A DNA stretch of 64,000 bases from an uncultured bacterium (lineage in GTDB: Bacteria > Cyanobacteriota > Vampirovibrionia > Gastranaerophilales > Gastranaerophilaceae): positions 301,784 through 365,783 of the forward strand of contig CACWTN010000005.1 of NCBI GenBank assembly GCA_902763805.1. Direction: 5' to 3'. Position numbers and translations under genes: made by a program. Below the pieces are notes generated by a model. The model was given only the letters and a program-made list of their open reading frames with translations, had not been told where the DNA came from and did no database searches. Positions 33,001 to 50,556 of this stretch are shown one piece after another; the first letter of the stretch is position 1, and each line of letters begins with the position of its first letter.

Positions 33001-33597
33001 CTACACTATGATATCAAACTTAATCTTGTCCAGACTATGAATCAAATCATACAACTTTGTTCCGGGGGTTACAGCTTCTTCCTGCATAATTACGTTTTGA
33101 ATATAATCGAACTCGTCAAACGAAAATTTTGTTTCCGGATTTTCTTTTTTTAACCGCTCGGCAGCTTTAACTTTTTCAAGAAAAAATTCCCTGCTTTTTG
33201 GATTTGTTATCTTCTCCGCAAGCTTTTTCAGTTCAGAAAAATCTGCTCCTTTTTCAAGATATTTTCTTGTTATGACTTTAAACAAATCATTTTCACCGTC
33301 CCCGAAGATTCTGGAACACTCATTAATAAGCGTTTTTGCAGCACTCTCTGTTTTACGCATTTTTGAACGATGCTGAAACTTAACACCCTGAAAGTTATCA
33401 TTAGAAAAAATAAACTTGCGGTTTTTATTAATATCAACTACGGTTTCTTTATCAATATTCCGTGCAAAAGTTTCATCAAAGAGCTGAACATATTTGTCCG
33501 TTCTGACTTTATCATGCCCGAATTCTTCATTTATCTTTTTCAGCAAATTCTTTCCGATTTTTGCACGAAAAGAAATGTCATTAACCGTTAGTTCCAT
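33001..33597 (-). CDS. Lineage-specific protein with N-terminal ISFRA leader
   Basis: 198 residues from ATG 33597. It starts MELTVNDISFRAKIGKN: a short leader ending in F10-R11-A12, as in eight other proteins of this window. The rest is charged and mostly helical (ESAAKTLINECSRIFGDGEND, REFFLEKVKAAERLKKENPET), with no membrane helix or known motif. A leaderless-type promoter precedes it. Function unknown. Confidence 0.65.
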   Translation of the reverse strand: MELTVNDISFRAKIGKNLLKKINEEFGHDKVRTDKYVQLFDETFARNIDKETVVDINKNRKFIFSNDNFQGVKFQHRSKMRKTESAAKTLINECSRIFGDGENDLFKVITRKYLEKGADFSELKKLAEKITNPKSREFFLEKVKAAERLKKENPETKFSFDEFDYIQNVIMQEEAVTPGTKLYDLIHSLDKIKFDIIV

Positions 33598-33629
33598 AAC
33601 CAATTAAAAACCTGTAAATATTATTTTTG
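33598..33629 (-). promoter_or_regulatory. Shared leaderless-type promoter, copy 2
   Basis: CAAAAATAATATTTACAGG starts 32 bp before ATG 33597 and is followed by TTTTTAATT and five bases before the ATG. TTTACAGGTTT matches copy 5 (40929) base for base at the same distance. Confidence 0.55.
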
Positions 33630-33651
33630 CCTGAAACAATTACCCCTGTCC

Positions 33652-35496
33652 CTACTCAACGGTTACAGACTTAGCAAGGTTTCTCGGCTGGTCAACATCT
33701 TTACCGAGAAATTCTGCAATGTAGTATGCAAGCAGTTGTAAAGGTACTATCGCAAGTGCAGGTGAAAGAAGTTCCGAAATCTCAGGAACTCTGATTACGT
33801 TCTCAAAAAGTTCCTCAAGTTTGTGGTCATCAGAATCCGTCAGAGCCAGCATTCTTGCATTTCTTGCTTTTGCTTCTTCTGCATTAGATAAAATCTTCTC
33901 GTAAACTTTGCCCTTCATCAAAATCGCAAGAACAGGCATAGAATCATCTAACATTGCAATAGGTCCGTGTTTGAGTTCACCGGCAGAGTATCCTGTCGCA
34001 TTAATATAGCTTATTTCTTTAAGTTTTAATGCACCTTCTAATGCTGTCGGGAAGTTTATTCCTCTTGCAACAAAGATAAAATCTTTAAATGATGAGAATT
34101 TTCTTGCTATAGCCTGAATGTCTTCCTTGTGGGTTAAAACTTTATCTATTTTTTGAGGAAGAAGAATAAGTTCGTGCTTCAAATCAAGAATTTCTTCTTT
34201 TGAAATTGAACCTTTAACTTCAGCCATATAAATAGCAAGAAGATAGAAGGATATTAGCTGCGCCATATAAGATTTTGTTGCCGCAACGGAAACCTCAATA
34301 CCCGCATTAACAGGAACAAGACTGTCTGCTTCTCTTGCCATTGTTGAATCAGGTCTGTTAGTTACAATAAGAATATGAGAGCCTTTTTTCTTAGCCAATC
34401 TTATTGCCGTAATTGTGTCAGCCGTTTCACCTGATTGAGAAACACCAATTACAAGAGTGTTCTCGTCGGTAATAGTTTTTCTGTAAATATATTCGCTTGA
34501 TGCTTCAACTTCAACAGGAATTCCGCAGAAATCTTCAATAATATATTTACCTACCATAGCTGCATGAAGCGACGTTCCGCAAGCAACAATTTGTATTCTG
34601 TTCAAATCTTTTAGCTTTGCCTTGTCTAAAGTAACTTCATCAAGCGCAATCGGTTCATCAATCGTTTTAAGTTTTCCTGATAAAACGTTTCTTACAATAT
34701 CAGGCTGTTCATGGATTTCTTTAAGCATAAAGTGCTTGTAACCCATTTTTGACAACGCAACCGGCTCCCAAGGAAGTGTTTCAATCTTCAGCGGAACTTC
34801 ATTCTTCTCAATATCAATAACTTTTGCACTTGACGGTGTTAAAGTAACAATTTGGTTATCGTCTAAGTACATTGCTTTTTTTGTATACTGGATTAATGCA
34901 GGAATGTCAGAAGCAACATAATTTTCGCCTTCTCCAAAACCGATAACAAGCGGAGCATTTCTTCTTGTTGCAACAATAGTATCCTTAACATCCTGATGAA
35001 TAACAGCAAGAGCGTAAGCACCCTCTATTTCTTTGGTAGCAAGCCTTACAGCTTCTGTTAAATCTTTTGTTTCTGCATATTTTGATGCGACTAAGTGTGC
35101 AACCGTTTCCGTATCGGTTTGTGAACGGAAAGTACACCCCTGAGCTTCAAGTTTTACTCTGAGCTCTTTATAGTTTTCTATAATTCCGTTGTGAACTATT
35201 GCAACCCTTCCGCAATTACATGTGTGAGGATGAGCATTCGCTACTGAAGGCGCACCGTGTGTTGCCCAGCGAATATGACCGATACCTATAGTGGATTTTG
35301 ATATTTCGGAATAATTTTTCTCAACAATATTTCTCAGATTTTGCAGTTTACCCTGAGCTTTAAACACCTGAACTTTGCCGTCAATATTAAGAGCGACACC
35401 TGAAGAATCATATCCTCTGTATTCAAGACTGGTTAAGCCTTCGAGCAAAATATCGACTGCTGTTTTATTTCCTATATATCCAACGATTCCGCACAT
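33652..35496 (-). CDS. glmS: Glutamine-fructose-6-phosphate aminotransferase (isomerizing)
   Basis: 614 residues. Makes glucosamine-6-phosphate from fructose-6-phosphate and glutamine, the entry to peptidoglycan and lipopolysaccharide sugars. The N-terminus is the class II glutaminase with the nucleophile C2 (MCGIVGYIGN) and EYRGYDSSG. Two SIS isomerase domains follow (GVSQSGETADTITAIRLAK, GPIAMLDDSMPVLAI), and the C-terminal DQPRNLAKSVTVE is canonical. No glmS ribozyme was seen upstream; the 146-bp spacer is simply AT-rich. Confidence 0.98.
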   Translation of the reverse strand: MCGIVGYIGNKTAVDILLEGLTSLEYRGYDSSGVALNIDGKVQVFKAQGKLQNLRNIVEKNYSEISKSTIGIGHIRWATHGAPSVANAHPHTCNCGRVAIVHNGIIENYKELRVKLEAQGCTFRSQTDTETVAHLVASKYAETKDLTEAVRLATKEIEGAYALAVIHQDVKDTIVATRRNAPLVIGFGEGENYVASDIPALIQYTKKAMYLDDNQIVTLTPSSAKVIDIEKNEVPLKIETLPWEPVALSKMGYKHFMLKEIHEQPDIVRNVLSGKLKTIDEPIALDEVTLDKAKLKDLNRIQIVACGTSLHAAMVGKYIIEDFCGIPVEVEASSEYIYRKTITDENTLVIGVSQSGETADTITAIRLAKKKGSHILIVTNRPDSTMAREADSLVPVNAGIEVSVAATKSYMAQLISFYLLAIYMAEVKGSISKEEILDLKHELILLPQKIDKVLTHKEDIQAIARKFSSFKDFIFVARGINFPTALEGALKLKEISYINATGYSAGELKHGPIAMLDDSMPVLAILMKGKVYEKILSNAEEAKARNARMLALTDSDDHKLEELFENVIRVPEISELLSPALAIVPLQLLAYYIAEFLGKDVDQPRNLAKSVTVE

Positions 35497-35642
35497 AAAT
35501 CTCTCCTGTTATTACTAAATTATTTTAGCATAAATATGAATATTTCTTATTAAGATTATATAAACATTTGTAAATATTTTAGAAAAAACAGTCAATAATT
35601 TAAAAATAAAAAACTTTATATAAACATAAAAGGTGTGTGTGA

Positions 35643-36050
35643 ATGATTGACCCCATAAACAGTATAACAAACCCGTATATTAATTTTCGCTCAAATCATG
35701 AAAACATGGGAAGTCTTGGCTTTCAGCCAAGAATGCGCCAGCCGCTTTTGATAGATATTTTTGAGAAAACAACTTCCGGCGGAATAAACGGCTCGAAAAA
35801 TTCTGCAGAAAAAATACAGGAATTACTTCCTTTTGCAAAAATAAAATCTCTTGCCCCGTCTACCAGAGAAACTGAACGCAACAAAAAAATAGAAGAAGAA
35901 AAGAAACATATAGCAAAAGTAATTACGAAACGGACGGAAGAAAGCAAACGAAAATTGCGTAATGCCGGAGTAAAAGAAAGAGATTTGTACAAATATTTAA
36001 CTTACGACGGACACATTAACAGCGAAGGGCAACGCATAATCAGGGGCTGA
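35643..36050 (+). CDS. Lineage-specific protein with INFRS leader and C-terminal AGVK/KYL motif
   Basis: 135 residues. The N-terminal leader is MIDPINSITNPYINFRS (F15-R16-S17). The C-terminal 34 residues, KRKLRNAGVKERDLYKYL...GHINSEGQRII, match a segment at residues 68-102 of the protein at 37636, suggesting a shared small helical domain. The middle is charged. AAGGTG precedes the ATG. Its last 11 bp overlap the end of the convergent gene at 36040. Function unknown. Confidence 0.65.
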   Translation: MIDPINSITNPYINFRSNHENMGSLGFQPRMRQPLLIDIFEKTTSGGINGSKNSAEKIQELLPFAKIKSLAPSTRETERNKKIEEEKKHIAKVITKRTEESKRKLRNAGVKERDLYKYLTYDGHINSEGQRIIRG

Positions 36051-36852
36051 ATTTGCCGTTCCATAATTTTCGAAGAAGCATGTCCCTTTGAGAAAGTTCT
36101 CTATGAGATAATACTGTTTTTTCAGAATACGGATATTCACCAAAAATATTCTTTTGAGGTATAAGCCTTTCCTTATCCAGCACTTTCAGGTTTCGTTTTG
36201 ACAGGTCGCAGGCAACAGCTTCCAAAGGGTTTGATCCTGCATAATGGCATATTTTTGAAAGCTTTTTACCATGCTTTGAAATAAATCCGTCAAGAAAACC
36301 CTCTTTGTGCAATGACTGAAGTACTTTTAACAGTTTTTCACAGCCAAGCCGGTTTATCATATTATTCTCGTGCAGAACATGCATAAACTCATGCAAAATA
36401 TTTTCCAAAAAGAAATCTGTTGCAGAAATCCCTTTCTCATAACATTCGTCAGCTATACTATCAAGATTTTCCCATTTTATGTTATTTGAGTTAAACACAA
36501 TCGTTTTTTCAGGTACTATGATATCTTTTGCTTTAAAAAGATATGACGGAACGAAATTTGTTAAACCCATTGCCGACCGATCAACACCGTTTAATTTTTC
36601 ATAATCTTCTACAAGAATACCGTTTGGCATTCCTGTATTATAATGAAATCTGTTGTTTATGTACCTGAGTATCTGAAAACATTTTAAGGAACTCCACGCA
36701 ACAACACGATTGTTTTTAAAATCGGTATTAATATTTGCAGCTGCAAAATAATTTTCTATATCTTTGACATTACAATGCCTTATTTCAGCCTTCATTTGTT
36801 TTGTAAGGCCTGACTGAAATGAGAATTTGTTGTTGTACACCCGAATTTCCAT
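36040..36852 (-). CDS. Putative zinc metallopeptidase (HExxH) with FSFQS leader
   Basis: 270 residues from ATG 36852. N-terminal leader MEIRVYNNKFSFQSG. The zincin motif HEFMH is at residues 154-158 (ENILHEFMHVLHENN), preceded by an IVFNSNN strand and followed by SNPLEAVACDLSKR, whose glutamate could be the third ligand. The same order of blocks occurs in the protein at 9874. No signal peptide. Target and activity unknown. A leaderless-type promoter precedes it. Confidence 0.6.
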   Translation of the reverse strand: MEIRVYNNKFSFQSGLTKQMKAEIRHCNVKDIENYFAAANINTDFKNNRVVAWSSLKCFQILRYINNRFHYNTGMPNGILVEDYEKLNGVDRSAMGLTNFVPSYLFKAKDIIVPEKTIVFNSNNIKWENLDSIADECYEKGISATDFFLENILHEFMHVLHENNMINRLGCEKLLKVLQSLHKEGFLDGFISKHGKKLSKICHYAGSNPLEAVACDLSKRNLKVLDKERLIPQKNIFGEYPYSEKTVLSHRELSQRDMLLRKLWNGKFSP

Positions 36853-36885
36853 TATATAGTACAAAAACCTTAAAAATTTTTTTTG
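36853..36885 (-). promoter_or_regulatory. Shared leaderless-type promoter, copy 3
   Basis: CAAAAAAAATTTTTAAGG starts 33 bp before ATG 36852, followed by TTTTTGTACTATATA directly before the ATG. No ribosome-binding site at normal distance. Confidence 0.5.
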
Positions 36886-36978
36886 CTATAGTTTATGAAC
36901 ATTTGTAAAAAATCCCGTTAAAACATATCAAAATATTCCATGCTTAAGGTTTAATAATAAAAAAAGAGAAGGTGTTAT

Positions 36979-37632
36979 ATGATTAATCCTGTCAATCTGA
37001 TAAACAACCAGGGGTATGTATATTTTAAATCTGCCGACAACAAATCTAAGTTTCCATATTGCACAAATAATCTGCAGCTTTCGGGGTATGAAGCAGGCCG
37101 GGCAATTTTAGCGGAAAAGAATATTTGCTTTAAACAAAAAGAAGCATTAACTCCGATTGATTCTGTATATAACCAAAAAGTCAACAGTGAAATTATCAAA
37201 ACCTGTTATGAATATGACTCAAACAAAAAAAATGACACTTTGGCTTATTATGTCGGATCTTTATTAGAATATTACACGCCATCATTCCATACTGATATAG
37301 ACAAAAAAAGTTTTATGAAAAAATGTTACTTAATATTGGATTTCAACACTAAAAACGATAATTTAAACACGTTCGGAGATTGTTACGAAAAACAGCAAAA
37401 ATTATTGCAAATTGTTTCCGATACTTTAACTCCGAATACGTTGGATTCCATAAAAGAATATGACATCAAGCTTCAAAATGAAAATTTTGAAAACGGTAAA
37501 TTTGATGAAAAAACAAAAGATAACAATATTAAAATAATTAATTCAGTATCATTTGAAGATATAAAAGACTTTATTAACAATAATATGTTAAACAAAAAGC
37601 CGTATATTACGGTGCAAAAAAGGGAAAATTAG
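36979..37632 (+). CDS. Lineage-specific protein with VYFKS leader
   Basis: 217 residues. The leader is MINPVNLINNQGYVYFKS (F16-K17-S18). The rest is lysine- and asparagine-rich, helical, with no membrane helix; a CFKQKE and LGSLLEYYT-like segments are present but no known motif. GAAGGTG precedes the ATG; an AAGGTTTAATAAT box upstream resembles part of the shared promoter. It ends 3 bp before the gene at 37636, so the two form an operon. Confidence 0.6.
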   Translation: MINPVNLINNQGYVYFKSADNKSKFPYCTNNLQLSGYEAGRAILAEKNICFKQKEALTPIDSVYNQKVNSEIIKTCYEYDSNKKNDTLAYYVGSLLEYYTPSFHTDIDKKSFMKKCYLILDFNTKNDNLNTFGDCYEKQQKLLQIVSDTLTPNTLDSIKEYDIKLQNENFENGKFDEKTKDNNIKIINSVSFEDIKDFINNNMLNKKPYITVQKREN

Positions 37633-37635
37633 TCC

Positions 37636-39051
37636 ATGATTCCGGCAATAAAACCAACAGATAAATATACAAAAATCACACCTAAAATAAAACATAAAGC
37701 GATACTGCCTCTTATTGCAATGCCAATAGTAGCATACGCATATTCAGCAAGCAAAAGAGAATCTATATTTGCCACAAAAATCGCCCAGGAAAAAAACTCG
37801 ATGGGCAAACCTTTTACAAAGAATTTAGAAGATCATAAAAAACAATTACAAAAAGCCGGAGTTAAAGATAGTGAGATTAGCAAATATTTAAATTCAAGCG
37901 GAAATTACAATACAGAAGGTGAAGCAATTCTAAAAAAAGGTAAAAAACAAAGTACGTTTAAAGGTTCACCAGACGAAACATCATCAGAAACAACAAGCTT
38001 GAACGACACAACAGATTTACAGGAAACACAGGCTTTAGAAGAAAGCGACGTAAGCATTTCTCCGGAAATGACTGATATTGATGACAGCTTGACGGATTTG
38101 CCTGAAATTAAAGCAATAGACCGTACAATACAAATTGTTGATACAATTCTTGATAATCCTTTGCTGATTGGTTTGGCAGCCGAGATGTTGCCCGTGGTAA
38201 GATTTTTAAAACCTGCCACAGACCTGTTTCATGGCGATTTTGACAAATCTCTGGCCGGCATAATATCCAGAGGAATTGATATTGTCATTACTCCGCTCAA
38301 ACTTACCGCAGGATCTGTTCAGGGACTGGTTGAAGCCTTTAGCAATTCCGAACCGAAGAATAAAATAAAAACTTTCTATGGCGGGTTGAAAGACTTTTAT
38401 ACCTCCTGGGCTCAGGGAAGAGATGATATGGAAGATGAATTCTTAGGCAGAGCAACAAAAGCAGAAAAACTGGAAAATTTACGTAAATACAAAGAAGAAT
38501 TAATTAAACAAAAAAAACAAATGCTCGCTGACAGGTATAAACCAAAACCCGAATTTGCAGATCCAATCAAACCGCAGGCAAGCATTAAAGAAAATCCGCT
38601 GAACAACCTTGATGACCGTATAACAGCGGAAAGAAAATGTTTTAAAGAATTGCTGGAAAAACTTCAGGCATTAAACCCAGATATGAACTTATCTGAATAC
38701 AATACTTATAACACCTGGGGTTCTTCAAAATTAGCCAAAAAAGCAAGAAAAATTGAAGAAAAAATAAAGGCAGAAAATGATAAAAAAGGTATACACGAAG
38801 ATTTTGTACCTTTCAGCATAAAACTGAAACAAATAAAAACAGCGGATTTAAAAAACAAATTCCAAAACCTGCTTACAGAATATCAAAATTGTGACCCTAA
38901 CGCACAAATTTCCGATTATGACGGCTGGGAAAACTGGAATACGGACGAGTTAAAACAAAACATAACAGCTCTTGCCGACATTGTAGATGCCGCTAAAAGA
39001 AATCCTGAAAACACATTTTTCAGATTTCATCATTTACCCTTACGGAAATGA
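37636..39051 (+). CDS. Large lineage-specific protein with duplicated helical module
   Basis: 471 residues. One possible membrane helix lies near residues 20-38 (KAILPLIAMPIVAYAYSAS). Residues 68-102 (HKKQLQKAGVKDSEISKYL, then NTEGEAIL) repeat the C-terminal motif of the protein at 35643. A Thr/Ser/Asp-rich linker, a hydrophobic block (170-235), and two related units follow: ELLEKLQALNPDMNLSEYNTY (about 335-378) and NLLTEYQNCDPNAQISDYDGW (about 407-451), each with a W/N-rich turn. Its 3' end overlaps the opposite gene at 39030 by 22 bp. No function recognised. Confidence 0.6.
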   Translation: MIPAIKPTDKYTKITPKIKHKAILPLIAMPIVAYAYSASKRESIFATKIAQEKNSMGKPFTKNLEDHKKQLQKAGVKDSEISKYLNSSGNYNTEGEAILKKGKKQSTFKGSPDETSSETTSLNDTTDLQETQALEESDVSISPEMTDIDDSLTDLPEIKAIDRTIQIVDTILDNPLLIGLAAEMLPVVRFLKPATDLFHGDFDKSLAGIISRGIDIVITPLKLTAGSVQGLVEAFSNSEPKNKIKTFYGGLKDFYTSWAQGRDDMEDEFLGRATKAEKLENLRKYKEELIKQKKQMLADRYKPKPEFADPIKPQASIKENPLNNLDDRITAERKCFKELLEKLQALNPDMNLSEYNTYNTWGSSKLAKKARKIEEKIKAENDKKGIHEDFVPFSIKLKQIKTADLKNKFQNLLTEYQNCDPNAQISDYDGWENWNTDELKQNITALADIVDAAKRNPENTFFRFHHLPLRK

Positions 39052-39314
39052 CCGATGGCTGCGGCGAGCAGAGCAATGATACCGCAAATTGTAAAATAAC
39101 GTTTAAGATTGAACTCATGTTTTTCCTTCTCCTTTACTGCACCTTCATATATATCTGTATTAATCGCACGCATTTTTTTCGTCGCTTCCTCATCGGAAAA
39201 CGGCTTTTTCTGAGGCAGAACCAAATGTAAATCATTCGGGTCAACCTTTGGGCGTTTAACCTTCATATTTGTTGAGGTATGTGCCTCAAGATTATATGTA
39301 TTCACTTCACTCAT
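39030..39314 (-). CDS. Small tail-anchored membrane protein
   Basis: 94 residues: a polar N-terminal part and a single hydrophobic helix at the C-terminus (YFTICGIIALLAAAIGHF) followed by RKGK, the pattern of a tail anchor. It begins 1 bp after the GNAT gene stop and should be co-transcribed with it. Its 3' end overlaps the convergent gene at 37636. Function unknown. Confidence 0.6.
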   Translation of the reverse strand: MSEVNTYNLEAHTSTNMKVKRPKVDPNDLHLVLPQKKPFSDEEATKKMRAINTDIYEGAVKEKEKHEFNLKRYFTICGIIALLAAAIGHFRKGK

Positions 39315-39315
39315 A

Positions 39316-39984
39316 TCAGAAAAGTTCTCCGTAATGTATTAGTTTATTAAGCCGATTTTTCGGCAGATACATCATGCCTATTTGAGCAGGGATATCCGGC
39401 ATATTATTCCTCAGACACTCCTCCATGACTTCATTACTCTTAGGATCTATAAACCTGAATCCAAGTTTATAGAAGAATAACGCCGGCGACGCCTCCTTCA
39501 TCATCGGAGCCGAAAAAGTCACAATACGCCCCTGCGCTCGGGAATCAAACATCGCCTTCTCGGCAAGTTGTTTTAATGCCTCCGTTCCCTGTCCGCACTT
39601 GGGTTTCGCAGCCTGAATGTAATCTATAATATAACAGTTTTTTAAATACTTCGTTTTCCGTTTATACGTTCGCGGAGTATACAGTACGGGCGATTCTTTA
39701 GATACGAAAAAGTTTCCGCCGCCTCCATTATCCGCATATTGACTGTACTTACCCTTATATTCAAATTCTTCTTCCACTATATCGACATAGTCATCATCAA
39801 TTTCGCCCGGAATAACAATATTATCACCGCGCTTTATTTTTTTAACCCGTAAAATCGCCTTTTCCTTCAGCTGAGGCGTTTTAAACCCCAGTATCGCCGG
39901 CATACTCATGCTTGTCACAGACGGCGTCGCCTTAGCAACACTCATCTGAGGACGCAAGTCCATAGTCGTGATGTTGTTAATCAT
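39316..39984 (-). CDS. GNAT-like acetyltransferase with LGFKT leader
   Basis: 222 residues. The C-terminal half shows GNAT features: KPKCGQGTEALKQLAEKA (the acetyl-CoA loop, Q-x-x-G-x-G/A type), then ASPALFFYKLGFRF, the typical strand-helix end. The first 36 residues are a leader ending in F34-K35-T36. The substrate is unknown. An AGATAGGT ribosome-binding site precedes the ATG, within a short direct repeat of AGGTTAGATA. Confidence 0.6.
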   Translation of the reverse strand: MINNITTMDLRPQMSVAKATPSVTSMSMPAILGFKTPQLKEKAILRVKKIKRGDNIVIPGEIDDDYVDIVEEEFEYKGKYSQYADNGGGGNFFVSKESPVLYTPRTYKRKTKYLKNCYIIDYIQAAKPKCGQGTEALKQLAEKAMFDSRAQGRIVTFSAPMMKEASPALFFYKLGFRFIDPKSNEVMEECLRNNMPDIPAQIGMMYLPKNRLNKLIHYGELF

Positions 39985-40091: not shown

Positions 40092-40862
40092 TTATTTTTT
40101 AAAATATTCTTTTAATTTTTCCATCGGACTATCAGGACCGTATTCCGCCTTGAATCTTGCATCAACAAAACGGTAACCTATAAATTTACCGGAATCATCT
40201 CTTTCGATTTCAAATTTTGTATGTAATGTTTGCGTTTTTCCTTGACCATCTTTTATTCTTCTGGGGTAATAATTAACATAATCAAAACCGTCATGATTAT
40301 ATTTATAAAGAGCAGCTCTGTATTCCGGAGTTTCTGCCTCTTCTGATGGAACACCTTTTTCTAAAAGCGTCTTTTTTATTCTCTTCTGCTTTCCGAGTTC
40401 TTTCCCAAATTTTTCATCAAAATCAGCAACATTATGTCCTGTTATTATATATGATGTCGGAGAAAAACAATCTGTCGAACCATAGTATGCATTATAGTAT
40501 GACCTTCTTTTCGGACACAGTCTGTAATCAACATCTACAGAAGCAATATATGTTCTGAATTTTTGAGCTGGAACATCTAATATTTCGTACAAACTTTTTA
40601 ACTTTCTTTTTATACCTCTTAGCTCTTCCTCTCCAATATTCTTTTTATTCATCTTATCTTCTAATTTTTTTACTTCTGTCAAAGTTTCTTTAATTGATTT
40701 GCGTAAAAAATTAAGAATTTTTTGCTGAAAATCTTCAACGACCGCTTTTTCACCAACAGGTGCATAACTTCCCCCTGCTTCGGCTACCCAATGAACAACA
40801 GGGAATGTTGATTTAAAATTTCTTTGTTGGTATTGATAATTGTTAGTTTGCAGAATTTTCAT
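40092..40862 (-). CDS. Lineage-specific protein with RNFKS leader
   Basis: 256 residues from ATG 40862, giving the leader MKILQTNNYQYQQRNFKS (F16-K17-S18). The frame is open to 40931 but the upstream part covers the promoter and the GGGGTAAATG element, so the shorter start is preferred; ATG 40880 is the alternative. The middle is a coiled-coil-like stretch (LTEVKKLEDKMNKKNIGEEEL); Tyr-rich parts follow (KRRSYYNAYYG). No known family. Confidence 0.6.
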   Translation of the reverse strand: MKILQTNNYQYQQRNFKSTFPVVHWVAEAGGSYAPVGEKAVVEDFQQKILNFLRKSIKETLTEVKKLEDKMNKKNIGEEELRGIKRKLKSLYEILDVPAQKFRTYIASVDVDYRLCPKRRSYYNAYYGSTDCFSPTSYIITGHNVADFDEKFGKELGKQKRIKKTLLEKGVPSEEAETPEYRAALYKYNHDGFDYVNYYPRRIKDGQGKTQTLHTKFEIERDDSGKFIGYRFVDARFKAEYGPDSPMEKLKEYFKK

Positions 40863-40894
40863 ATTATCATTAAACCCCATAAAAATATTTTTTG
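40863..40894 (-). promoter_or_regulatory. Shared leaderless-type promoter, copy 4
   Basis: CAAAAAATATTTTTATGGGG starts 32 bp before ATG 40862; TTTAATGATAAT follows up to the ATG, with a TAAT-type -10 at the right distance for an mRNA beginning at the start codon. Confidence 0.5.
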
Positions 40895-40897
40895 CTA

Positions 40898-40907
40898 GGG
40901 GTAAATG
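40898..40907 (+). repeat. Intergenic GGGGTAAATG element, copy 2
   Basis: Exact 10-mer between two divergently directed leaderless-type promoters, followed by TAGGG. Confidence 0.5.
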
Positions 40908-40928
40908 TAGGGAGAGGAGATATATCAG

Positions 40929-40960
40929 CAAAAAAATTTTTTACAGGTTTATAATGTAGT
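40929..40960 (+). promoter_or_regulatory. Shared leaderless-type promoter, copy 5
   Basis: CAAAAAAATTTTTTACAGG starts 32 bp before ATG 40961, then TTTATAAT (-10, TATAAT at 40950-40955) and five bases before the ATG. This is the best example for an mRNA starting at the A of the start codon. Confidence 0.6.
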
Positions 40961-41308
40961 ATGAACATACAAAAAACAAACATATCTTTCGGTGAAAAAT
41001 ATCCGACCGCAAAAGTATTAGAAATCACAACTAAGAAAATTTTTGACCCTGACGGTGTAACAGGTTATATAGAAACCCTGAAAAAAATTCATGGAAATGT
41101 TCCGAGATATACAGGACATCAGGGGTACAGAAAATATGCAGACGAAGTAAGCGAAAAAATACTTGCCAAATATCCTAAACTGGCTCAGGCAACAAAGGAC
41201 ATTCTGGATATCGCAAACCGTTGCAGAAGTCCGTTTGCCAAAGATTTAAATGTCATGGTACAACCCGTTTTGGACAGGTTTGGCAAAGAAATTGATATAG
41301 TTATATAA
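40961..41308 (+). CDS. Lineage-specific small protein with ISFGE leader
   Basis: 115 residues. It opens MNIQKTNISFGEKYPTAKVLE (F10-G11-E12). The remainder is helical and basic (YADEVSEKILAKYPKLAQATKDIL). There is no ribosome-binding site; TATAAT stands five bases before the ATG. The 3' end overlaps convergent truB by 8 bp. Function unknown. Confidence 0.65.
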   Translation: MNIQKTNISFGEKYPTAKVLEITTKKIFDPDGVTGYIETLKKIHGNVPRYTGHQGYRKYADEVSEKILAKYPKLAQATKDILDIANRCRSPFAKDLNVMVQPVLDRFGKEIDIVI

Positions 41309-42588: not shown

Positions 42589-45366
42589 CTAACCTTTCAG
42601 ACTGTCTAAAAATTCTTTGTTTGCATCAAGCGTATCCTGTGACGCAACAATGCTGTATATCGGTTTTTTAGAGAATATTTTTTGTGCTGCGTCAATTATA
42701 TCCTGTTTGGTTATCTTATCAACTTCATTATAAATTTTGTCCTTCAGCTCTATACCGTACGGAGAATTCATTCCTGCAGATAAAGCTTCTATTTTTGCAA
42801 GATTGCCCTCATTTTCCAGCAAATCTGCTTTCATAGAGCGTTTTGCATTTTCTAAATCTTCATCCGTAAACTTACCGTCAAGAAGCTCTTTAATCTGGCG
42901 GTTAAATCCGCTTATTGATTTTTGTACATTATCATAGCTGTATTCTCCGATTTTTTTGTTATCGGTAGTTGTCAGAATGTTTAGTGATAACTGCCCCTGA
43001 TTTCCGATACGTGAATAATTTGAGAATACAGAATATGCAAGATTTTCCTTTTCACGCAACACATCAAACAAACCAATGCTTGATGAAGAAAGAATAGAGT
43101 TCAGAACCTGAATTACTGCCATTTCTTTAATGCTGTTATCACGTTCAAATCTGAATACTTCAGAAATATCAGCCTGAGAGTTATAATTTGATGCTGTAAG
43201 TACGACAGGAGTTTTAATCTCCTTGTGTACTTCAAGAAGTCTGTAATTATTGGGTTCGACCTGAGGAAGACTGGATACGTTGCTCAGTATGTTATACTTA
43301 ATTTCTTTTTCGGCTTTTTCGGGAACATTTGCGGTAACAATTCCTCTTGAATTTTTGATTAAGTAATTGTGAAGCTCTTTAACATCATCCACTGTAATCT
43401 TATCAAGTCCCCTCATAATTTCATCACGTCTGAACAGGAACGGATTTAATATCGTATCTGCATCTTTCTGAAGCATATTTGCCGTTTTTGGTGTTCTTAA
43501 CATTCTGTCTTTTATACGGGCTGCTGCTACTTTGATATTTTTTTCGTTTATATTCGGATTAAACAAAAGTTCTTCCATTTTGTTTAACCCGAGTTTGTAA
43601 TTGCTGACATCACCGCTCATGCCGGCACTTATACCTGATTGTCCTGCATTTACAACTATTCTCAGATTATTTTTATCCTTAAACTCATTAAATTTATCAA
43701 CCGGCATATTCGGAGTGCCCATCGTGTAAATTTCACTCAGAATTTCCGCAACTCCGGCTTTTTTGGAATACGGAATATTATTCTTTAGTTCAAGTGATAC
43801 ATTAATATTATTCGTTTTGGTATTGTAAAAAGCTGTATCATAATTGTTATTCAGCCTGTATTCACTCATTGCAGCAGTATCAAGCGGAGTTCTCTTTGCT
43901 CCTTTAAAAGAAACTTTTTCTGATGTTTTTTCAGGATGAATAACAGTAATTGCACACTTTGAAACATCAAAATATTCTTTTACCGCTTTACTGAGTTCTT
44001 CAGGAGTTACGGAATCCAGAATTTCATTGTACTTAGTTATGTATTCAATATCATTATCCAAAACAGAATAGCCTATATTGTCATTAACGGAGGTTGAATG
44101 TTCCAATACAGATTCATTTTCCTGTTTTAACCGCTGTTTAAGACGTTCTGTTGTTTCGGCTGATATTTGCTTCTTATTTCCCAAATTATCAAATACTGTT
44201 TTAAGAACTTTTTCCGCATTATATTCCGCAGGTGCCATTGTCATAAACACAAATCTAGGGCTGTTTGGATTTGTAGAAATTTTTTCACTGCTTATTAATG
44301 GAAGTGAGTTATATTTTTTGAGTTTTGGTATAAGTCCTGCTTCATGAGAATTCAGATAAGTCGCAGCCAGTTCAAAAAGAATCTTGCCCCTTGTATCATT
44401 GTTTTTCGGGCCTGCAAAACCAATAACCGTTTCAGCAGAAGTTGTTTTATCCGATTTAAAATCTTTTCTGACGGTTATTTCTATCGGACTCATTTTTTCT
44501 TCAAATTTCTGACCTTTAGAAACTTTACGGGAGTTAAAATTCTTAGCAACAAGCTTTATTGTTTCTTCTGGATTGACATCACCTGTTATAACAATATTGG
44601 TATTATCGGGAGTATAGTACTTGTTATAATAATTAACCACATCTTCTCTTGTCAGGTTCTGAATATGTGCAACACTTCCGCCCACCAGTTCATCAGCAGG
44701 ATTTTTAACATTGAACAGCGTTCTTACGGTTTGGTCCATCGCAACTGTCTGTGGGTTATCAAGAATCATATTTATCTCAGAAGAAACTGGGCCTTTTTCC
44801 TTTTTAATCATGTCATCCGACAGTTTTAAATCTTCCGCCATAGCAGCAATAACCTTAATCTGAGTTTCAAGGTCTTTATTTTCAAGGAGCGGGGTTGAGT
44901 TAACATAATCGGTAATCGCATAGTTTGTACTTGCATTTGCCCAGCCGCCTAGTTTGTCAATCTTTTTAAAAGAATCGCCCTGTTTAAGTTCAATATGTCC
45001 GTTTTCACCGTTTGTTCCGTTAAATGCCATGTGTTCAAGAAAATGACTAATACCTTTAATGTCAGCCGTTTCATTCATAGAACCGACATTAACATAACTT
45101 TTTACAACAGCAGGTGAATTTTTCATCGGAACAATGGACACTCTGTATCCGTTAGACATTTTATAGCTGTGAAGCTCCAGTCCGTTGTCCAATTTGTCAA
45201 CAGATGTTTTTCTGTATTGTACAGGAACGTTTACCCCAAAATCAGGTGTCACATATCCAAGCTCTTTAATCTCTCTCTGCGTTTTTTGAGGCGTAACATT
45301 ATCAGGGGTCGTTTTATTTGCCCCCAGCGAATTAAATACAATATTATTTACACCTGAAACCTTCAT
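42589..45366 (-). CDS. M16-family (insulinase-like) metalloprotease with IVFNS leader
   Basis: 925 residues from ATG 45366; the frame runs 35 codons further upstream but that part reads as non-coding. The leader is MKVSGVNNIVFNS (F11-N12-S13), and no signal peptide follows, unlike many M16 proteases. The zinc motif HFLEH is at 108-112 (ISHFLEHMAFNGT), with the distal ligand E190 about 77 residues on. Two M16 halves are visible; the second lacks the zinc motif, as usual. It should degrade peptides or small proteins in a closed chamber. The ATG has no ribosome-binding site. Confidence 0.88.
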   Translation of the reverse strand: MKVSGVNNIVFNSLGANKTTPDNVTPQKTQREIKELGYVTPDFGVNVPVQYRKTSVDKLDNGLELHSYKMSNGYRVSIVPMKNSPAVVKSYVNVGSMNETADIKGISHFLEHMAFNGTNGENGHIELKQGDSFKKIDKLGGWANASTNYAITDYVNSTPLLENKDLETQIKVIAAMAEDLKLSDDMIKKEKGPVSSEINMILDNPQTVAMDQTVRTLFNVKNPADELVGGSVAHIQNLTREDVVNYYNKYYTPDNTNIVITGDVNPEETIKLVAKNFNSRKVSKGQKFEEKMSPIEITVRKDFKSDKTTSAETVIGFAGPKNNDTRGKILFELAATYLNSHEAGLIPKLKKYNSLPLISSEKISTNPNSPRFVFMTMAPAEYNAEKVLKTVFDNLGNKKQISAETTERLKQRLKQENESVLEHSTSVNDNIGYSVLDNDIEYITKYNEILDSVTPEELSKAVKEYFDVSKCAITVIHPEKTSEKVSFKGAKRTPLDTAAMSEYRLNNNYDTAFYNTKTNNINVSLELKNNIPYSKKAGVAEILSEIYTMGTPNMPVDKFNEFKDKNNLRIVVNAGQSGISAGMSGDVSNYKLGLNKMEELLFNPNINEKNIKVAAARIKDRMLRTPKTANMLQKDADTILNPFLFRRDEIMRGLDKITVDDVKELHNYLIKNSRGIVTANVPEKAEKEIKYNILSNVSSLPQVEPNNYRLLEVHKEIKTPVVLTASNYNSQADISEVFRFERDNSIKEMAVIQVLNSILSSSSIGLFDVLREKENLAYSVFSNYSRIGNQGQLSLNILTTTDNKKIGEYSYDNVQKSISGFNRQIKELLDGKFTDEDLENAKRSMKADLLENEGNLAKIEALSAGMNSPYGIELKDKIYNEVDKITKQDIIDAAQKIFSKKPIYSIVASQDTLDANKEFLDSLKG

Positions 45367-45527
45367 ACTTATATAAAAACATGTCTCTGTATGAAATTGC
45401 GTGATTAATAAGTTTTTGTAAAGAAAATTTAAAATAAACAAGGCTTTTGTATTACTCCCGAAATTAAACAAACAGGTAATTTATCGGAAGAATTATGCCT
45501 TTACAATTTTTATATGGAGATTTTGTT

Positions 45528-45839
45528 ATGGGAAAAAGTCAGAATAAATATTTAGAAATAAAAAACGTTAACAGAGATATTGTTAATTGGTTAGAAGATA
45601 TAGCCGAAGAAAACAACTGCCGTGTTGAGCGAAAAGAGTGGAAAAGCAAGTACAACAGTTATGTTGTATACGATTATGAACCGTTTTGTTCTGAAGGTTT
45701 TGAGATTAACCTCCTTTTCAGCTCTACGCAAATATCATACCTGAACTTTATTAAATATCTGTATAAAGAAAAACTTGCAACATTAGAATACCTGAACAAC
45801 TGCATAAAAATTCCTACAGTAAAAAACTATTCAATTTAG
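45528..45839 (+). CDS. Conserved-looking small protein, unknown function
   Basis: 103 residues from ATG 45528, chosen because GGAGA is 7 bp upstream; the frame is open from 45495. It reads MGKSQNKYLEIKNVNRDIVNWLEDIAEENNCRVERKEW and so on, an alpha/beta mix with many aromatic and charged residues. No known motif or signal peptide. Divergent from the M16 gene. Confidence 0.6.
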   Translation: MGKSQNKYLEIKNVNRDIVNWLEDIAEENNCRVERKEWKSKYNSYVVYDYEPFCSEGFEINLLFSSTQISYLNFIKYLYKEKLATLEYLNNCIKIPTVKNYSI

Positions 45840-45848
45840 TTTGGTTGT

Positions 45849-45948
45849 TGTATAATTAAGGAACATGCATTACATCAGTACGGAAAATGCATGGGTAAGT
45901 ATGTGGATATAAGAGCGGGGCGGAATATTCCCCTAAGGAAGTATAAAT
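45849..45948 (+). promoter_or_regulatory. Promoter and structured leader of the aminotransferase gene
   Basis: A TATAAT box around 45851 would start a leader of about 90 nt. It contains GCATT/AATGC arms and then AGAGCGGGGCGGAATATTCCCC (45912 onward), where GGGG and CCCC can pair just before the AAGGAAG ribosome-binding site. AGAGCGGGG...GAATATTC also occurs in the leader at 12636-12651. Not recognised as a known riboswitch. Confidence 0.35.
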
Positions 45949-47190
45949 ATGCGAGAATTTTTTAATGATTATGTTCAATCGCTTGAAACATATATTATGT
46001 TCAGGATAAAAGAAACCGTTGCAAAACTTACACCTGAACTTATTGCAAAAGGCAGAGCTCCGATAATGTTATCAATGGGCGCACCGACATCTAATCCGCC
46101 AAAAAGAGCAATAGATGCATTAAAATCCGCATTGGACGAAAAGGGTGAGCATCTGTATTCAACACCGAAAGGTGAAAAGTTTTTGCGCGAAGCTATTGCA
46201 AAACGTATGAAAAACCGCTTTAATGTTGAGCTTAACCCTGATACCGAAATTTTTTCTTTAATCGGTTCCAAAGAAGGTATCGCTAATTTTATCAGATTAC
46301 TCATCAATCCTACAACCGTGGAAAAAGACAAAGAAATTATCTTTATCCCCGACCCGGGATACGCATCATACGGAGAAATGATTAAAGCTTCAGGCGGTTT
46401 TGCTTATCCGCTTCCGCTAACTCCCGATAATAACTTTATGCCGGATTTAGAAGAAGTTTATGCAAAATTTATCAAAGAAGGTTTTGACCCGAAAAAGGTT
46501 AAAGCTCTGATTATAAATTATCCGAACAACCCGCTTGGCGCTACCGCTACAAGAGAATATATGGAAAGCGTTGTTACTTTCTGCAAAAAACACCATATTC
46601 TTTTGATTTCGGATGCTGCATATACTGATATGTACTTCAAACCAGAACTAAAACCGATGAGTATTCTTGAAATAGAAGGCGCAAAAGACATTTCGGTTGA
46701 GTTCTTCAGTTTCTCCAAACCTTACGCAATGACAGGCTGGAGATTAGGCTGGATTTGCGGTAACGAAGAAGCTGTAAAATTCTTCGGCAAACTTAAATCA
46801 ACTATCGATTCAGGTGCTTTTAAGGCAATACAAAAAGCATCGTCTGATATCTTAAACTCCGCAGAAGGCGAAGAATACATTAAACAATCAAACTTAAAAT
46901 TCAAACATAATCAGGAGATTTTAATCAAAGGACTTAAAGAAGAACTGGGCTGGGGCGAATTCCACGTTCCTGACGCAACATTCTATCTGTGGCTTCCTAT
47001 TCCGCCGAGATATAAAACATCCGTAGAATTTTCAGATGATTTAATGAAAAAATCAGGTGTTGTCGTTGTTCCCGGTGATGCTTTCGGAAAGTACGGACAA
47101 GGTTATTTCCGTGTTTCAATAGTCTGTCCTGAAGAACAAATTAAAGAAGTTATCTCCAGAATGAAAAAAGACGGATTTACTTTCAAATAA
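45949..47190 (+). CDS. dapL: Class I/II aminotransferase, LL-diaminopimelate aminotransferase-like
   Basis: 413 residues, PLP-dependent fold type I. Motifs: YPNNPLGATATREYME, ISDAAYTDMYF, and the Schiff-base lysine in FFSFSKPYAMTGWRLGW. The family includes DapL, which makes LL-diaminopimelate for lysine and peptidoglycan synthesis in one step and is the usual route in Cyanobacteria. The overall match is to the DapL/AspC group; other substrates such as aspartate remain possible. A structured leader precedes it. Confidence 0.72.
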   Translation: MREFFNDYVQSLETYIMFRIKETVAKLTPELIAKGRAPIMLSMGAPTSNPPKRAIDALKSALDEKGEHLYSTPKGEKFLREAIAKRMKNRFNVELNPDTEIFSLIGSKEGIANFIRLLINPTTVEKDKEIIFIPDPGYASYGEMIKASGGFAYPLPLTPDNNFMPDLEEVYAKFIKEGFDPKKVKALIINYPNNPLGATATREYMESVVTFCKKHHILLISDAAYTDMYFKPELKPMSILEIEGAKDISVEFFSFSKPYAMTGWRLGWICGNEEAVKFFGKLKSTIDSGAFKAIQKASSDILNSAEGEEYIKQSNLKFKHNQEILIKGLKEELGWGEFHVPDATFYLWLPIPPRYKTSVEFSDDLMKKSGVVVVPGDAFGKYGQGYFRVSIVCPEEQIKEVISRMKKDGFTFK

Positions 47191-47208
47191 GCAGAATATA
47201 TTCACTCT

Positions 47209-47814
47209 CTACATAAAACTGTTATGTAATTTTTCCCACGCAACATCTGTTGCTCTGCCATGCCCCGGGTAAATAACAGTTTCTTCGGGTAAAGTAAAAA
47301 TCTTTTTCTTTATGCTGTCAACAAGCTGAAGAAAATCTCCGCCTTCCAAATCACAACGTCCCACAGATTCACGAAAAACGGTATCGCCGGAAAACAACAT
47401 ATTATCTACAAGATAGCAAACTCCGCCCTGTGTATGTCCCGGAGTATGAAGAACTTTTATTTCGTTTTTGCCTATAGTTAAAACATCATTGTCATTTATA
47501 TAAATGTCTATTTTCGGAATGGTTATTTCAGGAATTCCAAACGCCGGAAGATAGATGTTTGACTGATTTAATATCGGTAAATCATCTTTGTGCATAACTA
47601 TTTTAGCATCTGTCTGCCTGATACCTGCAACATGATCAAAATGTCCGTGAGTAAGCAAAATATATTTTAACCCAGCTCCGTATTCTTCAAGAACTTCTCT
47701 AATCTTCGGTTCAACAGCCGAACAGTCAATCAAAACCGCTTCTTTTGATTCTTCATCTATAAGAAGGTAGTTATTATTGTCTATTGGCGGTTCTCTAAAA
47801 GTTTTCAATATCAT
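47209..47814 (-). CDS. Metallo-beta-lactamase-fold hydrolase (glyoxalase II-like)
   Basis: 201 residues. The di-zinc motif THGHFDHVAG is near residue 55, followed by HTPGHTQGGVCYL, FSGDTVFRESVGRCD, and IYPGHGRATD. This is the GloB-like subgroup, which hydrolyses thioesters such as S-lactoylglutathione analogues or has persulfide dioxygenase activity. Short length fits the bacterial YcbL/GloC type. Transcribed alone. Confidence 0.88.
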   Translation of the reverse strand: MILKTFREPPIDNNNYLLIDEESKEAVLIDCSAVEPKIREVLEEYGAGLKYILLTHGHFDHVAGIRQTDAKIVMHKDDLPILNQSNIYLPAFGIPEITIPKIDIYINDNDVLTIGKNEIKVLHTPGHTQGGVCYLVDNMLFSGDTVFRESVGRCDLEGGDFLQLVDSIKKKIFTLPEETVIYPGHGRATDVAWEKLHNSFM

Positions 47815-47828
47815 AATTTAATTGTAAC

Positions 47829-47863
47829 AAAAAAACGGGCAAATAATCTATCCGCCCGTTTTA
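47829..47863 (-). terminator. Terminator of the glycogen-synthase-like gene
   Basis: On the minus strand AAAACGGGC pairs with GCCCGTTTT, followed by a T-run, right after the stop at 47869. Confidence 0.8.
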
Positions 47864-47868
47864 CTGTT

Positions 47869-50556
47869 TTATACAATTCTTGATAAATATCCCGGTTCTT
47901 TTTCTTTCTCAAAATCAGGATTAAGCCAGCCTATTTTATACGCTGCATAACCAAGACCCGCAATTACTGCAGATAATGCAGTAAGTTTTATTGTGCGTTT
48001 GCCGCCGGGAGAATGAACAAATTCCGAAACAACTTTTTTCAAACCTTTAAGTTTTCTTGCTCTGCGTTTTTGAGTGCCGTTAATTTTTGCACCATTTCCG
48101 ATAATATCCTTTGATGAAATGGATACTGCATCTTTTTGGAAATCACTTCTGTAAAGTTCTCCTGTCGGGAATTTTGAACGGGTAATAAGCTGGTTATCCT
48201 CCCAACCGTATTTTCCGTTTATTTGGTTTCTGAGAATAGTTCTGGCTATATCATCCTTTCGGTGTTTCACAAGACATCTTTCCAATGCTTCCGCTATATC
48301 ATCAGACATAACTTCATCACGAAGTTTTCTTAATGCCTCTTTATATTCAGGATTAACTTCAATAAATCTTTCTATTGTTTCTTCGGGAACTTTATCTTCC
48401 TGGAACGCAACTTTATATTTTGTTTCTATATCATTTTTCAGTTTTAAATAAACTTTATCAAACGCTTTTTTCGCATCAGGATTAGCAACTTCAAGCAGAG
48501 ATGCTCTTGACTCGAAGAACTGATGTTTTGTTTTAAACGCATCAGCAAGTCCTTCTTCTCCTGCAATAGCGGGATCAAAATTCTTCTGACCCAGTCCCTG
48601 TCCGTTTGCGGCAATCGGAGTACACAAATGCTGTTTTGCTTCCAAATCTACCAGCTCGCAGGGAGCAGTTCTTGACGCAACAACAACACAGTCTGAAACC
48701 TGTGCCATAGGACGTCCCGGAACAAAATCATCCATCGACATAACTTTTCCTTTAAGTTTTTCATCTCTCATAAAGGTTTCCGTTTTCTCTTTGATAATTT
48801 TGCCTTCCGCTTTATCAACATTTAGGTCGCCGCCGATTAATAATACAGTATTTTCATCGCCTGTCTTATAAACATATTTCTTGAAGCCATCCATCGCTTC
48901 ATCAAATGCTTTCTGGAAATCTCCGCGTCCCCAGCAGGCAACAAACTTAACGTCTTCGCCTTTTTCAAGCTTTTGTATATATTTTTCTGCATCTATATAG
49001 GACAATACGGGCATGTTTTTGCCTCGTATTTTTGCAGTGCCTGTTCCCACTCCGCCCCATTTTTGTTCTTTTTCATCATACAAACGTGCGTTTTGGTACT
49101 TAGGTAAAAATCTCTTTAAGAAGTTAATTTTATTTTGTCTTTTCTGTTCTCTTAATTGCTCAAGAGTTAAAGTTGCTCTTTCCGACTCTCTGAAAAATTT
49201 GAGCGGCTCAATAATTTCTTCCGTACCGTTTGCAAGTTTAATTCTCTGCGGCTTGTCAAAACCATCCATACCCGTTTTGTTAAATGCATTTTGGTCTTTT
49301 ACATTAAGCGGGTTTGTACGTCCTACCAGAATGCCTTTCTGATGAAGTTCCCGGATATCTTTAAACAGGAACGGTGCAATTTCTTTATTTTTAACAATTT
49401 CATCTACATATCCCTGTGATACAACACCCCAGGTCTGCAAAAATCCGACATTACCGTAGTGAGTTGCCACACTTAATGCTGACAACTTGTTATGAGCCTG
49501 CATATTTTCTAAGAACCTGCCAAAGAAAATTTCTTCATCCGCCCCGCCCTTTACAAGCGCTTCTCTTAACTCGGGCGATTCTATGAACGCCTCCAGTTCA
49601 CGAGGAGAGAACAAACCTAAATTAACAATCATGTTTCTGGCAGAAGTTATGCCTATATATCCATCACCAAGGTTATGACCGATTTGTATCGGTTTTTTAC
49701 CCTGAAAATATTCTACTCCTGCTGCATTTTTCTTAGCCATGTAGTGAGTTACGTAAGCTGCCTGAGAATCCGAACATACAACCGTCGCAGGATCAAAATT
49801 ACCCAAATTCCTGCTTATATCTTCCATATATTCAACAACAGCTTTGTCATATTTTGCATAAGGGTCGCCGCCCCATGAGTTAACTATCTCTTTTACTGCT
49901 GATGAATACTGACCGTCTGCATAAGGATCAGGATAATATGCTGTTGCCTCCGTAAACACCATAAACAAATCATGTTTTACAGGACCTTTACTGGCATTAG
50001 ATACTACTTTCAGAAGTTTTGTCGGCGCTTTTTCCTGCATGCCCCATTCAATATCCTTTGAAGATACTTCTTCAAGTAACCAGCATTCGTCTTTGTTATT
50101 TATTAAAACATCTCTCAGATTATTTTTTGATAAATCCCGTTTTACATAAACAGGCTGACCAACCTTATCCTTAAAAGGATGCCCTTCGGGTAAGCCGTCA
50201 GGAACTCTTGGAAGCTCAACTCCGATTTTTAATAAATCAGTTGCCTCCTCTGAAGGTATGGCATATTTTATAATACCGTTATAGTATGGGGTTACAACTA
50301 CAGCCCTGCCGGGTTCTGTAGAAGACGCATTATTTAGTGTAAGATAATCGTTAATTACTGTTGCCACACCGCCTTTTTGAAAATATGGCTTTGCTTCACC
50401 TGCTACGTGAAGTACGTGGGCTTTATTTCCTCCCTTAAATGAAATCACCACCGGCTTATCTGAAGTATATGCCTTTGGTGATTCCGAATTATTTTTGTTA
50501 TGCATGGAAAGTCCGTATGCCGCCAGATTATTAACGCCTATAGCACTAATTCGCAT
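47869..50556 (-). CDS. Oversized glycogen-synthase-like glycosyltransferase with ISFKG leader and C-terminal membrane helix
   Basis: 895 residues from ATG 50556 (GTAAGGAGAAATCT upstream), about twice the size of GlgA. A 40-residue leader ends in VVISFKGG (F40-K41-G42). The GT5 start follows at once: HVLHVAGEAKPYFQKGGVATVI, whose KGG at 61-63 matches the ADP-glucose-binding K-x-G-G of GlgA. A GT-B-type C-terminal half is suggested by TVLLIGGDLNVD and FVPGRPMAQVSDCVVVASRTAPCEL. A long middle region is lineage-specific. Near the end KLTALSAVIAGLGYAAYKIGWL could span a membrane. Likely a polysaccharide-building enzyme; donor and acceptor unknown. Confidence 0.65.
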   Translation of the reverse strand: MRISAIGVNNLAAYGLSMHNKNNSESPKAYTSDKPVVISFKGGNKAHVLHVAGEAKPYFQKGGVATVINDYLTLNNASSTEPGRAVVVTPYYNGIIKYAIPSEEATDLLKIGVELPRVPDGLPEGHPFKDKVGQPVYVKRDLSKNNLRDVLINNKDECWLLEEVSSKDIEWGMQEKAPTKLLKVVSNASKGPVKHDLFMVFTEATAYYPDPYADGQYSSAVKEIVNSWGGDPYAKYDKAVVEYMEDISRNLGNFDPATVVCSDSQAAYVTHYMAKKNAAGVEYFQGKKPIQIGHNLGDGYIGITSARNMIVNLGLFSPRELEAFIESPELREALVKGGADEEIFFGRFLENMQAHNKLSALSVATHYGNVGFLQTWGVVSQGYVDEIVKNKEIAPFLFKDIRELHQKGILVGRTNPLNVKDQNAFNKTGMDGFDKPQRIKLANGTEEIIEPLKFFRESERATLTLEQLREQKRQNKINFLKRFLPKYQNARLYDEKEQKWGGVGTGTAKIRGKNMPVLSYIDAEKYIQKLEKGEDVKFVACWGRGDFQKAFDEAMDGFKKYVYKTGDENTVLLIGGDLNVDKAEGKIIKEKTETFMRDEKLKGKVMSMDDFVPGRPMAQVSDCVVVASRTAPCELVDLEAKQHLCTPIAANGQGLGQKNFDPAIAGEEGLADAFKTKHQFFESRASLLEVANPDAKKAFDKVYLKLKNDIETKYKVAFQEDKVPEETIERFIEVNPEYKEALRKLRDEVMSDDIAEALERCLVKHRKDDIARTILRNQINGKYGWEDNQLITRSKFPTGELYRSDFQKDAVSISSKDIIGNGAKINGTQKRRARKLKGLKKVVSEFVHSPGGKRTIKLTALSAVIAGLGYAAYKIGWLNPDFEKEKEPGYLSRIV

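Follow-up and report, generated by a model that had tools for sequence, protein, structure and literature searches.

Short peptides that mark unrelated proteins include the cargo peptides of encapsulins, which are usually C-terminal, and those of microcompartments, which are usually amphipathic helices. Hrp-box-type effector regulons consist of unrelated proteins with a common N-terminal signal and a promoter box. Early substrates of the flagellar type III apparatus, FlgD and other rod and hook subunits, carry an N-terminal hydrophobic signal and a gate-recognition motif as two separated elements (PMC8983047). Flagellar basal bodies or export genes are retained without flagella in Buchnera (PMC8109811) and Lysobacter (PMC9927559). 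Here we describe an N-terminal tag on unrelated proteins of the Gastranaerophilales, non-photosynthetic relatives of cyanobacteria that inhabit the human and animal gut. The tag was recognized in a 64,000-nucleotide stretch, the window, which spans C5:301784-365783 of a 1.96-Mb genome (G000). We conclude with high confidence that the tag is a protein address signal that is partly co-regulated. It is probably an undescribed address label, and perhaps the export signal for a second flagellum-like machine that is kept even when flagella are lost.

The tag begins with the start block M-[KRQN]-[IV]-x-x-[IVL], continues with a variable-length linker rich in Asn, Ser, and Gln, and closes with the end block [NQS]-[PTIV]-[NS]-F-[KR]-[GAS]. 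It resembles the early flagellar substrates in having small hydrophobic residues near residues 2-6, then a Phe-centered element, in a Leu/Glu-poor, Asn-rich stretch. The tag differs from them in the [KR]-[GAS] that follows F, in the lack of a hydrophobic position at F+4, in elements that are mostly fewer than 26 residues apart, and in being borne by many non-flagellar enzymes. As in Hrp-box regulons, many unrelated proteins have an N-terminal signal and a promoter element in common, but in this case the box is built of an A-tract and a T-tract, has a 33-nt leaderless spacing, and is absent before the secretion operon. Like encapsulin and microcompartment cargo peptides the tag is a short peptide on unrelated proteins, but it is N-terminal and, by sequence, not an amphipathic helix. 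An export core is kept without a flagellum, as in Buchnera and Lysobacter, but what is kept here is a paralogous system, separate from the true flagellum that some members also have, and this order has an extra soluble FlhA C-domain.

Genome statistics were calculated from a 1.22-Mb sample of the genome, taken as stretches, in which a simple home-made gene caller, which also sets the gene starts, defined 1,155 genes of ≥60 residues. The earlier note on this DNA had described nine window proteins with a short leader ending in F-[KRGNQ]-[SGAET]. All nine N-termini are present where it placed them (Table 1), and they are part of a larger set of ~75 tagged genes among the 1,155, which extrapolates to about 100-130 tagged proteins per genome. 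The literal motif, [ILVFY]xF[KRGNQ][SGAET] at residues 2-50, occurs in 83 genes compared to 68.3 ± 7.9 with shuffled N-termini; it is unconvincing as written because the enrichment reaches only z = 1.9, and it is the refined two-part signal that convinces. The start block M[KRQN][IV]xx[IVL] predicts an F block in residues 6-45 (P = 1.3e-6) and has no predictive value for an F block at internal residues 60, 100, or 140. Positions -3 and -4 show strong preferences (N, Q, and S; few hydrophobics) even though the selection motif left both free. The F block lies at residues 5-45, mostly 10-19, and over residues 1-29 the products of promoter-chosen genes are high in N/Q/P and low in E/L/D. Tags were scored with a simple motif and a promoter-chosen gene set; an earlier position weight matrix (PWM) was overfitted at position -3 and passed over true members. 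A crude Sec-like core occurs in none of the 75 tagged proteins and in 15% of the others, in agreement with the stated lack of a classical signal peptide, a difference that is partly by construction, most of the 75 having been selected with a filter against long hydrophobic runs. Genomic clustering of tagged genes was not significant (7 adjacent pairs versus 4.7 expected).

Printing the DNA upstream of tagged genes revealed a promoter-like element with the consensus TAGCAAAAAA[A/T]TTTTTTA[c][g]GGTTTTTatAat. Among the sites found, a distance of exactly 33 nt between the G of GCAAA and the ATG is seen 15 times, and neighboring distances occur 0-3 times each. The genes with the 33-nt spacing look leaderless because they are without a Shine-Dalgarno sequence; the other element genes start 45-80 nt downstream and have one. 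This spacing corrects gene starts in the leaderless subset, in which the ATG follows the start of the element by exactly 33 nt, and it independently backs the starts given earlier for the window genes at 33001 and 40092 (33 nt) and 36040 (34 nt). Genes were then chosen by the element rather than by the motif. The pattern [PTIVSN][NSTVAQP]F[KRGNSTCQ][AGSE] occurs at residues 4-50 in 24 of the 50 element-chosen genes and in 62 of the 1,105 others (P = 9e-16). This test is qualified by the way it arose: the element was first spotted upstream of tagged genes, and some promoter-bearing genes had already been viewed when the letters allowed in the motif were broadened. The plainer F[KRGNSTCQ][AGS] gives P = 2.6e-14. 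The internal control at residues 60-107 gave 0 of 49 element-chosen genes and 29 of 987 others, and the refined motif is N-terminal-specific rather than equally frequent elsewhere. A chance likeness in an AT-rich genome with Asn/Lys/Phe-rich proteins would fit the z of 1.9 for the literal motif, but it is refuted by the association in genes chosen without the motif, by the flat internal controls and by the conservation of the M16 metalloprotease N-terminus among orthologues.

The association between tag and element reappears in other species. The pattern GCAAAAAAWTTTTTTACGGGTTTTT, with ≤3 mismatches, has 14 matches in this genome and 0 in a reversed control; it is found in most genomes of the family and at most once per genome in other families of the class. 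Among 29 other genomes, genes just 3' of the element often start with the tag, as in MINSIHQTPSFKG, MNISAISFTGR, MRITPVNTYQYSAKRPVFKG, and MQNNSISFTSK. Viral contigs, searched as a test of phage spread, contained no exact match to the element.

The correlation of the tag with the element and its 33-nt spacing could also mean that the motif arises secondarily from a DNA or RNA feature of leaderless starts, acting in the promoter or in translation initiation, and is not a protein signal. This explanation is very improbable and is largely refuted by codon use. The F codons TTT and TTC are used as they are genome-wide, and the +2 residue uses its synonymous codons. Synonymous codons vary, and therefore selection acts on the protein and the tag is a protein-level feature. 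The distance of the F block from the start also varies (residues 5-45), and many tagged genes have a Shine-Dalgarno sequence or no element at all. Genome G253, from another family of the order, has a variant tag (MNIHPVNNVSFKG, MNISPISL...LSFGE; P = 0.001) with hardly any element.

Alignment of the window M16 protein with 12 orthologues (53-82% identical) shows that M1-K2-V3 and F11 are invariant and that there is no invariant residue from 12 to 41. Homologues outside the order do not share these residues: their M16 matches begin at query residues 43-68, and the alignment with solved M16 chains mostly starts at 59-70. Close relatives of the window M16 gene are found in Candidatus Gastranaerophilales and rumen genomes, and the taxonomic placement of the host is based on these matches. 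Orthologues of the 40092 protein keep NFKA or NFKS while the linker length changes. Tag counts in relatives come from small samples, and G002 was left out of them (51% GC, where the gene caller fails); the tag was not seen outside the order in small samples. The proposal of a lineage-wide, undescribed system thus stands to the extent that the tag recurs across the family, with a variant in another family of the order, and that no description was found in the literature searched. The idea of a sorting, secretion, or anchoring tag was right about a real tag under protein-level selection; its function, whether one of these or another, is inferred.

Most tagged proteins have no Pfam family. The families recognized are M16, M3, AAA (two), CheR, another methyltransferase, alpha-amylase, GT5-like, GH77, 5'-nucleotidase-type phosphoesterase, and HNH, and wherever Pfam recognizes a domain it begins after the tag. 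A serious rival to export, of modest probability, is that the tag serves for targeting or anchoring within the cell or envelope (to a granule, a shell, a scaffold of the inner membrane, or an assembly on the cell surface) and that type III secretion plays no part. Alpha-glucans are the substrates of several tagged enzymes (GT5-like, two GH13, and two GH77), domains of the AAA and methyltransferase kinds depend on cofactors found in the cytosol, the motif resembles known encapsulation peptides in being short and N-terminal, and the type III operon lies outside the promoter regulon. The bodies of the tagged proteins point the other way, being nearer in composition to exported proteins than the cytosolic proteins are (P = 0.003; cross-validated area under the curve 0.74). 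Their cysteine content is low at 0.89%, compared to 1.02% for Sec-exported and 1.43% for cytosolic proteins; in the promoter-chosen set alone this difference is marginal (P = 0.048). Targeting within the cell or envelope also fits poorly with the 5'-nucleotidase-type members (PF00149, and PF02872 too in L091), whose domain starts just past a short N-terminal region. In L091, which carries the promoter element and lacks an evident F block, the domain begins at residue 34; in L117, which has IPFKA, it begins at residue 44. Proteins of this type are normally Sec-exported. The tag does not have the sequence of an amphipathic helix, and no shell gene turned up, although no search was aimed at shell genes. 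The alpha-glucan loci are window 47869-50556, L057:1374-6245, L087, L112:7509-9587, and L118:8718-10682.

A candidate export machine is encoded in the genomes that carry the tag. FHIPEP (the FlhA family) is present in every sampled genome of the family and has two forms, with only a partial match in G197 and G088. The flagellar form is found in some genera, and the other form is designated FlhA-2. In this genome FlhA-2 is encoded in one operon with FliE, FliF, a FliG-like protein (called by position and size, with no Pfam match) and FliH at C10:8485-14493, and FlgF/G-, FlgB-, and FlgC-like rod proteins are encoded ~16 kb beyond it. FliP is present in 18 of 18 genomes tested, as a single copy in 10 family members without flagellin and as two copies in flagellated ones. 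FlhA-2 is 84-88% identical across three genera, and the flagellar FlhA is 72% identical between G000 and G251 (identities used G000, G004, G251, and G006; G002 was excluded, its proteins being miscalled and the FlhA tree unreliable there). The FlhA-2 scores of 704 bits for TIGR01398 (cut-off 772) and 592 bits for TIGR01399 (cut-off 692) place it nearer to FlhA than to HrcV, yet below both NCBIfam cut-offs. The apparatus does not have the marks of an injectisome; its gate does not score as SctV/HrcV-type, and the one secretin per genome is not assigned to a system. No paper in the literature searched describes the second apparatus as a secretion system.

A stand-alone soluble FlhA C-domain of ~490 residues is encoded at G000:C7:36904-38367 (L117:6904-8367) and also at L118:10727-12202. 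It is present in 28 of 28 genomes of the family and in 5 of 5 genomes from the three other families of the order, and it was found in 0 of 69 genomes of other orders, which have full-length or contig-cut FlhA at most. Its nearest paralogue is FlhA-2, and its spread is the order, the same clade in which the tag was seen. The FlhA C-domain is a docking platform for type III substrates. The solo domain is the best candidate receptor for the tag; the two are correlated on the scale of a single clade. Neither the promoter element nor the start block nor this candidate machinery appears in the earlier note.

Of the mechanisms considered, Sec-independent export by way of the second flagellar-type apparatus ranks first, and we judge it evenly balanced between right and wrong. 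Tagged proteins would leave without Sec through FlhA-2, FliP-2, FliF-2, FliE-2, FliH-2, and the FlgB/C/F/G-like rod proteins. Recognition would involve two elements, the start block with its small hydrophobic residues and the N/S-F-K/R-G/A/S block, and the solo FlhA C-domain would receive the tagged proteins. An N/Q/P-rich, E/L/D-poor N-terminus is the profile of type III signals. The tag has no Sec core, is Leu/Glu-poor and Asn/Ser/Pro-rich, and its carriers possess the type III core. The canonical gate-recognition motif (FxxxΦ) was rejected for lack of a hydrophobic preference at F+4, and therefore the tag would be a new variant of a type III-type export signal.

Several observations weigh against this mechanism. 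Type III signals usually have no strict consensus. The residue at F+4 is hydrophobic in 32% of tags versus 35% expected. Salmonella FlgD needs ~26 residues between its hydrophobic signal and gate-recognition motif (PMC8983047), and with F mostly at residues 10-19 the spacing in the tag is short. The type III operon has no promoter element upstream. The non-flagellated relative G004 has a tag enrichment that is not significant (P = 0.053; start block P = 0.49), and G191 (f2), which has the solo FlhA C-domain, has no tag in 97 genes with the motif used. Several tagged families (AAA, SAM methyltransferase, GH77, and GT5-like) make sense in the cytosol, a transmembrane-like stretch occurs in about one-fourth of tagged proteins, and the link between tag and apparatus is itself one that we infer.

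Another Sec-independent route, with the tag as its export or processing signal, is unlikely. Cleavage could take place at the F-[KR]-[GAS] end, before G/A/S, and the tagged M16 protein belongs to a family that includes the mitochondrial processing peptidase. This route lacks a candidate machine; a sheath occurs in 1 of 8 genomes and there is one secretin per genome, with type IV secretion and Tat systems not searched for. Contractile injection systems were rejected, the sheath family PF04984 being in that one of 8 genomes and not in G000.

Export through the second apparatus can be extended, tentatively and with less than even likelihood, to an order-wide pathway. About 100 proteins per cell would carry a sequence-defined N-terminal signal, many expressed from a dedicated leaderless promoter, and would be received by the solo FlhA C-domain and exported by a flagellin-free flagellar-type apparatus, possibly into other cells. 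A type III-like signal with an actual consensus would be unusual. Tag and promoter together allow ~100 genes per genome, most of them unannotated, to be grouped as a set predicted to be co-sorted. Non-motile members have a 'subset' of flagella genes (PMC4040986), for which such export suggests a purpose.

Several genes near these components were recorded. Within the FlhA-2 region, a 631-residue gene with a strong element (L062:360-2255) is situated ~6 kb upstream of fliE-2. Directly upstream of a tagged strong-element gene (C1:141007), a short gene (L029:300-950; G000:C1:140300-140953) contains an FHIPEP-like stretch. A conserved family starting MGMAASQARYLxLxARKxNxEYEGQQINQ (L109:2585-3559 and G000:C1:131360-132973) has no Pfam match and is near the FlhA-2 operon in G004. 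Flagellin-like genes are abundant, with 11 matches in this genome (including window 29323-30438 and 52157-53062) and 23 in G251, and some of their frames exceed 1,000 residues.

Table 1. Tagged genes and promoter-like elements in the window. 'G at' gives the position of the G of GCAAA.
Feature	Coordinates	Strand	Motif (position of F)	Remarks
Borderline member, N-terminus ...VNLFSE-	32077..32961	-		Element 34 nt before ATG, score 13.1
Tagged protein MELTVNDISFRA-, no assigned function	33001..33597	-	ISFRA (F10)	Element 33 nt upstream, score 27.8
Promoter-like element GGCAAAAATAATATTTACAGGTTTTTAATTGGTT	33598..33634	-		G at 33630
Tagged protein MIDPINSITNPYINFRS-	35643..36050	+	INFRS (F15)	No strong element
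Tagged protein MEIRVYNNKFSFQS-	36040..36852 (start 36852)	-	FSFQS (F12)	HExxH according to the earlier note; no Pfam match
Promoter-like element	36853..36890	-		G at 36886, 34 nt before ATG, score 28.0
Tagged protein MINPVNLINNQGYVYFKS-	36979..37632	+	VYFKS (F16)	No strong element
Tagged protein ...AILGFKT-	39316..39984	-	LGFKT (F34)	Weakest of the nine; no strong element
Tagged protein MKILQTNNYQYQQRNFKS-	40092..40862 (start 40862)	-	RNFKS (F16)	Orthologues MKILQ...TNFKA/ANFKA
Promoter-like element	40863..40899	-		G at 40895, 33 nt before ATG, score 31.6
Promoter-like element GCAAAAAAATTTTTTACAGGTTTATAATGTAGT	40924..40960	+		G at 40928, 33 nt before ATG, score 32.9
Tagged protein MNIQKTNISFGE-	40961..41308	+	ISFGE (F10)	Orthologues retain NISFGE
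Tagged M16 metalloprotease MKVSGVNNIVFNS-	42589..45366	-	IVFNS (F11)	Pfam PF00675/PF05193, domain from residue 88, past the tag
Degenerate element GCAATTTCATACAGAGACATGTTTTTATATAAGT, immediately before ATG of the M16 gene	45367..45400	-		Below PWM threshold
Tagged GT5-like protein ...VVISFKG-	47869..50556	-	ISFKG (F40)	Pfam PF08323, partial
Weak element upstream of 47869	50586..50623	-		G at 50619, 63 nt before ATG, score 16.7, with Shine-Dalgarno

The window elements are strong for 33001, 36040, 40092, and 40961, weak for 47869 and degenerate for the M16 gene, where the element was assigned by eye from orthologues bearing GGCAATTTTT...GTTTTTATATAAT. No element was found upstream of 35643, 36979, or 39316. 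The 39316 protein, taken for a GNAT in the earlier note, has no Pfam match. Several tagged genes have a GGAG(T/C)GTGTGTG-like leader in place of the element. The 37 nt upstream of tagged 35643 (35603-35639) recur at 89% identity before another gene (G000:C8:83111-83147). The bodies of the window proteins are mostly unrelated, as had been reported; 35643-36050 shares a 66-residue stretch (K..L..AGV....YL...G..N.EG..I; 38% identical, E = 5e-12) with its untagged neighbor at 37636-39051.

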